DNA of 64,000 bases from an uncultured Parafilimonas sp. Lineage in GTDB: Bacteria > Bacteroidota > Bacteroidia > Chitinophagales > Chitinophagaceae. The notes beneath the pieces were generated by a model. That model did not search any database. It saw nothing but the letters and a program-made list of their open reading frames with translations, and was not told the DNA's origin. The translations under genes and the position numbers were made by a program. Shown here piece after piece: positions 49,697 to 50,256 of this stretch (positions are counted from its first letter, which is position 1; the number at the start of each line of letters is the position of its first letter). The DNA lies in NCBI GenBank assembly GCA_903882935.1, contig CAIRZB010000004.1:1-64000 (forward strand), given 5' to 3'.

Positions 49697-49756
49697 GGGC
49701 CTATAGTTCAGTTGGTTAGAGCATCCCGATACAATCGGGAGGGCTTTGGTTAAAAT
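49697..49756 (+). pseudogene. Degenerate tRNA copy A with exchanged anticodon arm
   Basis: The sequence repeats the first two thirds of the intact tRNA 70 bases downstream (GGGCCTATAG, D arm, GAGCA) but its anticodon arm is TCCCG-ATACAAT-CGGGA (49724-49740), so the nominal anticodon is ACA; the T arm and 3' acceptor strand are lost. It cannot fold as a complete tRNA. Confidence 0.75.
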
Positions 49757-49766
49757 GTTTATAGAG

Positions 49767-49840
49767 GGGCCTATAGCTCAGTTGGTTAGAGCATCTGACT
49801 CATAATCAGAGGGTCCTTGGTTCAAACCCGAGTGGGCCCA
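49767..49840 (+). tRNA. tRNA with CAU anticodon (Met or Ile2)
   Basis: A full cloverleaf: acceptor GGGCCTA/TGGGCCC, D arm GCTC...GAGC, anticodon stem TCTGA/TCAGA with loop CTCATAA (anticodon 49801-49803), T arm CTTGG-TTCAAAC-CCGAG. The 3' CCA is not encoded. With CAU the tRNA is either elongator methionine or a lysidine-modified isoleucine tRNA; I cannot tell from sequence alone. It is not the initiator type, since the first acceptor pair is a matched G-C. Confidence 0.95.
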
Positions 49841-49900
49841 CATTTACCACCCCGATAAAATTTGGGGTGGTTTTTTTATGTTTTACGTCTACATTCTTTA
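49779..49900 (+). repeat. Direct repeat, copy 1 (tRNA 3' part, terminator, GIY-YIG start)
   Basis: 122 bases from CAGTTGGTTAG of the tRNA D arm to codon 7-8 of the GIY-YIG gene. The same order returns at 50116-50238 with the anticodon arm exchanged, one extra T in the terminator run and few other changes. Confidence 0.9.
49846..49877 (+). terminator. Terminator of the tRNA
   Basis: ACCACCCC (49846-49853) pairs with GGGGTGGT (49864-49871), followed by seven T; the ATG of the nuclease gene begins at the next base. Confidence 0.9.
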
Positions 49901-50126
49901 TTCTGTTTCCATTAATAAATACTATGTTGGATATTCTGCCGACACCGACAGCCGTTTATATAAACATAACACAAAGCACAAGGGTTTTACCGGCCAAGTG
50001 AATGACTGGGCATTAGTTTACACAGAAGCGTTGCCGGATAAACCACAAGCCCTGAGGAGAGAAAAACAAATAAAGCAATGGAAAAGCCGCAAGGCCATAG
50101 AAAAATTGATTTACCCAGTTGGTTAG
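49878..50126 (+). CDS. GIY-YIG nuclease family protein
   Basis: An 82-residue single-domain GIY-YIG protein: YVYILYS and YYVGYS form the two sheet motifs, the conserved Arg lies in DSRLYKH, and the metal-site Glu in [21 protein letters not shown]. Such small UPF0213/YhbQ-like nucleases are frequent in Bacteroidota; no restriction or repair role has been proven for them. The ATG directly abuts the tRNA terminator T run, leaving no room for its own promoter. The last codons (PVG-stop) come from the tRNA-like D arm of copy C, so gene and tRNA-like sequence are joined. It lies within a duplicated module. Confidence 0.93.
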
Positions 50127-50177
50127 GGCATCCCGATGCAATCGGGAGGGTCCTTGGTTCAAACCCGAGTGGGCCCA
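50116..50177 (+). pseudogene. Degenerate tRNA copy C with GCA-type anticodon arm
   Basis: The last two thirds of the tRNA (D arm, variable loop, T arm TTGGTTCAAACCCG, acceptor TGGGCCCA) are kept, but the anticodon arm is TCCCG-ATGCAAT-CGGGA (50131-50147), of exactly the same 17-base length, giving a nominal GCA (Cys) anticodon with U33 and A37. The 5' acceptor strand is absent, being replaced by the nuclease gene. Confidence 0.8.
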
Positions 50178-50182
50178 CATAT

Positions 50183-50215
50183 ACCACCCCGATAAAATTT
50201 AGGGTGGTTTTTTTT
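50183..50215 (+). terminator. Terminator copy after tRNA-like copy C
   Basis: ACCACCCC (50183-50190) pairs with GGGTGGT (50202-50208), followed by eight T. It duplicates the terminator at 49846. Confidence 0.85.
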
Positions 50216-50256
50216 ATGTTTTACGTCTACATTCTTTAAAAAAATTCCCGTTTACT

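Follow-up and report, generated by a model that had tools for sequence, protein, structure and literature searches.

A GIY-YIG nuclease gene flanked by palindrome-armed tRNA copies recurs behind tRNA genes across Bacteroidota and is a candidate selfish element

The DNA analysed here, referred to below as the window, is a stretch of 64,000 nucleotides from an uncultured Parafilimonas sp. of the Chitinophagaceae (assembly GCA_903882935.1, contig CAIRZB010000004.1, positions 1 to 64,000 of the forward strand). Between 49697 and 50238 on the plus strand it holds, in this order, a truncated tRNA-like copy, a tRNA gene with the anticodon CAT, a terminator, a gene for a GIY-YIG nuclease and a second truncated tRNA-like copy, after which the module closes with a repeat of the terminator and the opening codons of another nuclease copy. 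The features are as follows.

49626..49655, plus strand: promoter-like stretch, TTG-N17-TATATTTTTG, ahead of the whole module, read from the sequence
49697..49766, plus strand: truncated tRNA-like copy on the 5' side; retains the D arm and the 5' strand of the acceptor, with decayed T arm and acceptor 3' strand
49724-49740, plus strand: palindrome TCCCGATACAATCGGGA of the 5' tRNA-like copy, occupying the place of the anticodon arm
49767..49841, plus strand: functional-looking tRNA gene, anticodon CAT (ARAGORN; 70.1 bits)
49847..49877, plus strand: hairpin followed by a T run, resembling an intrinsic terminator and stopping at the start codon of the nuclease, likewise read from the sequence
49878..50126, plus strand: gene of the 82-aa GIY-YIG nuclease, its last codons and TAG stop written in tRNA-like D-arm letters
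50116..50178, plus strand: 3' tRNA-like copy; D-arm remnant, with T arm and acceptor 3' strand intact
50131-50147, plus strand: palindrome TCCCGATGCAATCGGGA of the 3' tRNA-like copy, occupying the place of the anticodon arm
50184..50215, plus strand: second copy of the terminator
50216..50238, plus strand: second nuclease copy, first codons only, then cut off

The promoter-like stretch resembles what we take to be the Bacteroidota promoter form and is presumably the promoter of the module; between it and the first tRNA-like copy lies an inverted repeat (49663-49696) with 17-base arms that are 88 percent complementary. ARAGORN places a single tRNA in the whole window, the one at 49767-49841, and since the genome's two other CAT tRNAs resemble the initiator and elongator Met species, this tRNA is, by exclusion, probably tRNA-Ile2. 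A sequence-only reading of this DNA had described a duplicated unit, and the alignment of 49776-49900 with 50113-50238 bears this out: 114 positions are identical, 9 are mismatched and 5 are gaps, at a spacing of 337-338; eight of the 14 differences fall in the anticodon arm. The window's repeats were grouped as repeat families D1-D3. That reading had also claimed that a complete GIY-YIG gene ends in a tRNA-like D arm and that the tRNA-like copy has an exchanged anticodon arm. Both claims hold, as the gene at 49878-50126 takes its final codons and TAG from CAGTTGGTTAG, which are tRNA D-arm letters, the protein ending in ...KLI-YPVG, and as TCCCGATGCAATCGGGA replaces TCTGACTCATAATCAGA. A third copy, absent from that reading, precedes the true tRNA at 49697-49766 and carries the identical exchange (TCCCGATACAATCGGGA) with a decayed T arm. 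The upstream copy is a 5' half of a tRNA without the 3' half, and the downstream copy is a 3' half that begins inside the D arm, giving at 50113-50169 a sub-threshold tRNA match of 23.7 bits (cut-off 29). TCCCGATACAATCGGGA and TCCCGATGCAATCGGGA differ by one loop letter and have a common GC-rich stem, TCCCGAT...ATCGGGA, that is longer than the stem it replaces; the pattern occurs far above chance, with 0 matches of the reversed pattern in the window's genome. The only open reading frames of at least 60 aa in the unit are the GIY-YIG gene and an antisense frame overlapping it.

The encoded protein matches Pfam PF01541 with 59.6 bits (cut-off 22.6), the domain covering residues 1-71 of 82. The active site of GIY-YIG enzymes consists of Tyr, Tyr, Arg, His/Tyr and Glu, and the residues taken as its counterparts, Y5, Y16, R26, H30 and E62, are conserved in 202, 205, 203, 203 and 204 of 205 genes, respectively (tandem copies counted), which together with the Pfam match places the protein in the GIY-YIG superfamily. 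The nuclease is under purifying selection, with a dN/dS of 0.05-0.22 in 18 of the 19 nuclease pairs with dS below 0.8, many of which have common members; the 19th pair, outside this range, joins two distant sequences. Its sequence relatives with solved structures are UPF0213/YhbQ and SLX1 nucleases (1zg2, E 8e-14; 1ywl, 7e-12; SLX1 7cq2, 1e-7), and as a single-domain protein of about 80-100 aa akin to 1zg2 and 1ywl it falls in the UPF0213/YhbQ subfamily, with no match among the NCBIfam models at 0.001. To our knowledge, neither the UPF0213/YhbQ nor the SLX1 nucleases are known as mobile or tRNA-linked.

In the window's genome, 40 tRNA genes score above the Rfam cut-off. A second related nuclease (L002) lies 94 bases 3' of its tRNA-Ser(GGA), and its tRNA-Pro(TGG) (G000:C110:28249-end; L021, L022) is followed by two palindromes 113 bases apart and then by the end of the contig. 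The 113-base unit consists of the palindrome, a tRNA 3' half and a terminator, without a nuclease, and contig C18 (L019) starts in the same kind of unit; the nuclease-free unit looks like a stripped form of the unit in the window. Among the tRNAs of the 30 loci checked, which cover 30 of these 40 genes, only Ile2 and Pro(TGG) have a palindrome within 1200 bases. Two further genomes of the window's genus, both incomplete, were compared: in G001 an element of the same kind is present at this tRNA (82 percent over 222 bases), and G002 gave no close match to the window's tRNA. This tRNA was met only once among the tRNA loci examined.

The proximity of GIY-YIG genes to tRNA genes, for which the sequence-only reading proposed a search of Bacteroidota genomes, recurs throughout the phylum, a tRNA being found directly upstream of the nuclease (same strand, at most 300 bp from the tRNA end to the start of the HMM match) in 77 of 97 loci from the family and in 63 of 80 loci from named genomes. 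For the family set, 147 genomes were searched, of which 93 have a related nuclease; 110 loci were taken, 103 had the nuclease by HMM, and removal of 6 repeats of the same place left 97. The distance is at most 65 bp in 68 of the 77 loci, and all 114 tRNAs that ARAGORN found in the 97 loci (pseudo-tRNAs counted) lie on the nuclease's strand. The 20 misses include loci cut by contig ends, seven with a tRNA only downstream (the nearest being Pro or Asp; for a tRNA only 3' of the nuclease see L105, L108 and L110) and some without a tRNA. By simple criteria, a tRNA-like copy is present on the 5' side in 29 of the 77 loci and on the 3' side in 49. About 17 tRNA species carry the element, among them Ile2, initiator and elongator Met, Val, Lys, Ala, Asp, Phe, Ser, Arg, Leu, Pro and Asn; one Gly tRNA, at 277 bases from the nuclease, is doubtful as a partner, and a few of the labels assigned by ARAGORN (Stop-tta and one Leu-taa) seem to belong to pseudo-tRNAs whose arms are palindromes.

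The named-genome loci came from a motif scan of species genomes, with 80 of 131 related places examined, and belong to Sphingobacteriaceae, Flavobacteriaceae, Cyclobacteriaceae, Chitinophagaceae, Bacteroidales and others, besides three in MAGs that carry the names of other phyla, perhaps through errors of binning. Their 63 upstream tRNAs are 51 Val(TAC), 10 Arg(TCT), one Val(GAC) and one Lys, a narrow range that is expected because the scan motifs came from a Val/Ile2-type nuclease. Here, 103 of 104 tRNAs lie on the nuclease's strand, and 10 of the 17 misses begin within 300 bases of a contig start. Two of the 80 loci repeat family loci and two others have one identical nuclease sequence; the nuclease of L024 equals that of L163 (a Chitinophagaceae contig) and that of L023 equals that of L155 (a Sphingobacteriales contig).

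The two sets together provide 137 loci with an upstream tRNA after three duplicates were dropped, and the exchanged arm is a general feature of them. If a palindromic hairpin, P, is defined as a stem of six or more that differs from the true arm, a P-bearing copy is present on at least one side in 93 of 137 loci and on both sides in 27, while 44 lack one by these criteria. The stems TYCCG, CCCCG or TCCGCC account for 109 of 120 P hairpins vs 2 of 137 true anticodon arms. In 22 of the 27 two-sided loci the 5' and 3' hairpins begin with the same six letters, against a shuffled mean of 10.7, or of 14.9 when shuffled within tRNA species (0 of 10000 as high in each case), an agreement that gene conversion within a locus could explain. 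The tRNA's own anticodon triplet lies inside the hairpin in 31 of 120 cases vs 18.5 with triplets dealt anew (1 of 2000 as high), and hence some hairpin loops seem to descend from the anticodon loop. In six Met-type loci the palindrome directly follows the anticodon-loop letters CTCATA or TTCATA, and in two Asp loci it follows such letters similarly with a few extra letters between. The statement in the sequence-only reading that GIY-YIG genes of Bacteroidota end in tRNA-like sequence holds for 52 of 73 scorable loci, in which the stop codon falls inside the palindrome of the tRNA-like copy, past it or no more than 12 bases ahead of it; in the other 21 it lies more than 12 bases ahead of P. 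At one further place (L303; G056:C1:5404000-5417000), eight copies of TCCCGAT(GCA or TCA)ATCGGGA occur in 12 kb, where neither a tRNA nor a GIY-YIG gene was found.

That the module is self-amplifying, as the sequence-only reading had proposed, is supported by tandem arrays. Full-length tandem nuclease copies are found in 29 of the 137 loci (two copies in 23, three in 4 and four in 2) at a spacing of 326-523, also in the single-contig genome G056, while 104 loci have one full-length nuclease and 4 have fragments only. In G149, two contig ends carry 8 full-length copies and 2 partial ones, which may belong to one array. The arrangement is also variable among relatives, at the species level, as expected of the mobile element that the sequence-only reading had in mind: within one genus, that of G105, the nuclease at tRNA-Val is intact, broken or absent. 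Inspection of 17 tRNA-Val loci from the 18 genomes of this genus revealed nuclease sequence, intact or broken, at 7 and none by HMM at 10. G105 and G149 have it intact and in tandem copies; G153, G156, G147, G157 and G152, the last at a contig edge, have it broken or partial. Among the loci without an HMM match, G151 retains a 3' remnant with a palindrome arm, start-codon remnants may persist in G006, G154 and G148 (all by eye), and that of G161 has sequence gaps. The same upstream gene end was recognised by eye at 6 of the 17 loci, namely G153 (broken), G006 (possibly remnant) and G160, G162, G150 and G155 (empty). The intact loci of G105 and G149 gave no match to other loci of the genus outside the tRNA region, and the comparison of intact with empty states therefore falls short of strictly one chromosomal place. 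In this genus (L241-L257), most genomes with a nuclease or remnant have one tRNA-Val allele and the clean empty ones have others, as judged by eye, a split that could reflect co-conversion or common descent. Cognataquiflexum/Aquiflexum species differ in nuclease copy number, and the tRNA-Val/nuclease module of L208 and L212 is inverted relative to its flanks when compared with L183, L201 and L187.

The nuclease clades follow the tRNA species. When 73 rows of a tree of 93 nucleases are labelled with their tRNA species, the labels require 26 changes (the least possible being 18), compared to a mean of 57.4 for shuffled labels, with 0 of 200 shuffles as low as 26. The Val(TAC) nucleases, nine sequences drawn from eight genera, fall into one group, and groups are also formed by most Ala and Asp nucleases, the Pro nucleases and both Met types; most branches are modestly supported, and the exceptions suggest changes of host tRNA. 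When nuclease similarity was compared with the similarity of six tRNA segments over 18 tRNA species, the anticodon arm scored best (rho 0.21, Mantel p 0.03), a signal that is not significant after correction over the six segments. The tree of the named loci (78 columns) is largely unresolved, with order labels partly clustered (27 changes, least 7, shuffled mean 38.6), and this combination makes old vertical inheritance of the nuclease with frequent loss, in place of horizontal spread, a possible history.

A sister GIY-YIG subfamily from the same family served as a control. It matched in 57 of 144 genomes searched, and only 1 of the 30 loci examined has any tRNA. Its genes are flanked instead by CGTC-tagged palindromic repeats (CGTCATTGCGAG...), such tags standing on each side of the gene, no farther than 500 bases from it, in 21 of the 30 loci (L273, L275, L277, L280, L285-L289, L291 and others of L271-L300) vs 9.4 percent of 500 random window places taken from one genome; the window's own genome has such a gene as well (G000:C98:5492-5749; L003/L271). 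According to a 2013 survey, the dispersed CGTC-tagged REPs are apparently without a dedicated transposase. Here we speculate, quite tentatively, that the small GIY-YIG proteins of Bacteroidota might be the enzymes of an unnamed class of hairpin-directed mobile DNA, with a tRNA-gene branch, marked by palindrome-armed copies and clades keyed to tRNA species, and a sister branch serving the CGTC-tagged REPs.

Taken together, the indications that the module is gained, grows in tandem, decays and is lost, the match between nuclease clades and tRNA species and the conserved active site lead us to favour, with moderate confidence, a selfish, tRNA-gene-specific nuclease element whose presumed cuts would drive both its spread and its tandem amplification, while support for its movement is indirect. 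Its unit would comprise the tRNA 3' part, a terminator, the small GIY-YIG gene and a tRNA-like copy in which one arm, mostly that of the anticodon, has become the GC-rich hairpin P. Slx1-type relatives act on branched DNA. The nuclease might nick or cut its cognate tRNA gene or the hairpins of that gene, and recombinational repair from a module-carrying copy might then spread the module to empty cognate tRNA genes and likewise enlarge or shrink the arrays. We propose that the true tRNA survives because a full tRNA always stays beside the module. The P-bearing halves may be recognition hairpins of the nuclease or, alternatively, target copies that can no longer be cut.

The closest precedent is SegB, described in PMC13096335 as a free-standing GIY-YIG homing endonuclease of T-even phages that lies beside tRNA genes and cuts inside them, and whose nuclease activity is needed for the recombination-dependent tandem amplification of segB plus tRNA. 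The Bacteroidota element shares with that account a GIY-YIG gene adjoining tRNA genes, the tandem amplification of nuclease and tRNA and the use of many tRNA isotypes (PMC13096335), and the same logic of cutting and amplification is inferred for it from this precedent. Unlike the phage-borne SegB, it is chromosomal, its nuclease clades follow the tRNA species, and it has palindrome-armed tRNA copies. SegB proteins are longer than 82 aa, with an extra DNA-binding region beyond the GIY-YIG domain, a region that the single-domain window protein lacks. The element is therefore not a member of SegB, given its single UPF0213/Slx1-like domain, the lack of any phage relative found and of any counterpart found for the palindrome-armed copies.

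Other known systems resemble it in part. RAYTs are HUH tyrosine transposases and their REPs are GTAG-tagged, according to PMC3733652. As in such REPtrons, small palindromes flank the gene of a DNA-processing enzyme (at 49724 and 50131 in the window), but here the enzyme is a GIY-YIG protein and not an HUH protein, and the palindromes lie inside tRNA copies. The tyrT distal repeats (rtT) of E. coli are tandem units with a tRNA 3' end at their start and a small ORF within; we know of no nuclease and no anticodon-arm palindrome in them, and rtT is absent from the Rfam matches up to E 1 in 49300-50600. Integrative elements with tRNA attachment sites likewise leave a tRNA 3' fragment on their far side, whereas the unit described here is about 340 bases long and often tandem, has no integrase gene and leaves a whole tRNA upstream. 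We found no description of the arrangement of tRNA, GIY-YIG gene and palindrome-armed copies in the open-licence literature.

Several origins can be set aside. Chance or an assembly artefact is ruled out by the recurrence of the pattern in many genomes, including the single-contig G056, and a group I intron carrying a GIY-YIG gene by an uninterrupted tRNA and the absence of any intron family from the Rfam matches up to E 1 in 49300-50600. The unit in the window contains no integrase gene, which rejects an integrase-driven island, and a phage or plasmid origin was rejected as the window protein had no match in 50,697 phage records and its relatives none in plasmid records (both at E 1e-5), and none was confirmed in viral contigs.

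The rival reading that we take most seriously, although we regard it as rather unlikely, is that P itself moves and that the GIY-YIG protein, like RAYT for REPs, is the enzyme recognising its hairpin, with tRNA arms as favoured landing hairpins and the tRNA halves as by-products. The agreement of P stems within a locus and the CGTC-tagged repeats around the sister subfamily speak for it, as does L059, in which a nuclease that groups with the Met nucleases (SH-aLRT 86) sits at tRNA-Phe, and the copy behind it is Phe sequence, otherwise complete, whose D arm is replaced by the Met-group palindrome TCCGCC; TCCGCC...GGCGGA is otherwise found in nine initiator or elongator Met loci. Arms other than that of the anticodon are also used where TCCCGATAGCTATCGGGA replaces D-arm letters of a pseudo-tRNA (L208) or occurs as an imperfect copy in the T loop of one (L183, L187 and L201). 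In addition, the 93 genomes that have a related nuclease contain more copies of TCCCGAT-N2-6-ATCGGGA than the other 54 do (mean 6.7 vs 0.52 per genome, Mann-Whitney p 2e-7), but this count takes in the copies inside the arrays themselves. The link between stem type and nuclease clade, moreover, amounts to one switch on the tree, and no movement of P to a new site was seen.

It seems improbable that the nuclease is instead a gene useful to the host, for repair or defence, parked behind tRNA genes for read-through from their strong promoters and duplicated by unequal crossing-over. Purifying selection, a start codon placed directly at the end of the tRNA terminator and the lack of a vehicle among the phage, plasmid and viral-contig sequences would suit such a gene, but clades tied to one tRNA species, P-armed tRNA copies, and decay and absence within one genus would be left unexplained. 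We give even less credence to a decoy or dosage device, in which the arrays would protect the cell from tRNA-cutting toxins or phage enzymes. A nuclease-driven tRNA amplification with that very benefit has a precedent in the amplified tRNA-Tyr that shields T6 from Septu (PMC13096335), and some loci (L183, L208 and L212) have extra true tRNA copies; the window, however, has one true copy only, and its extra copies, like most of those in the other loci fully read, are half tRNAs with a changed arm.

If the selfish-element reading is correct, tRNA genes throughout the phylum Bacteroidota would be exploited by an element with one gene of 80 aa and units of about 340 bases, very small by the standards of elements that target tRNA genes, and this element would represent a chromosomal counterpart to the SegB-type, nuclease-driven amplification of tRNA genes. 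It would also account for the C-terminal ends written in tRNA letters in many GIY-YIG proteins of Bacteroidota and for some of the contigs that end right behind tRNA genes. Given that the nuclease clades follow the tRNA species, the rule by which these enzymes would recognise their targets is directly testable with a small protein and short DNA.
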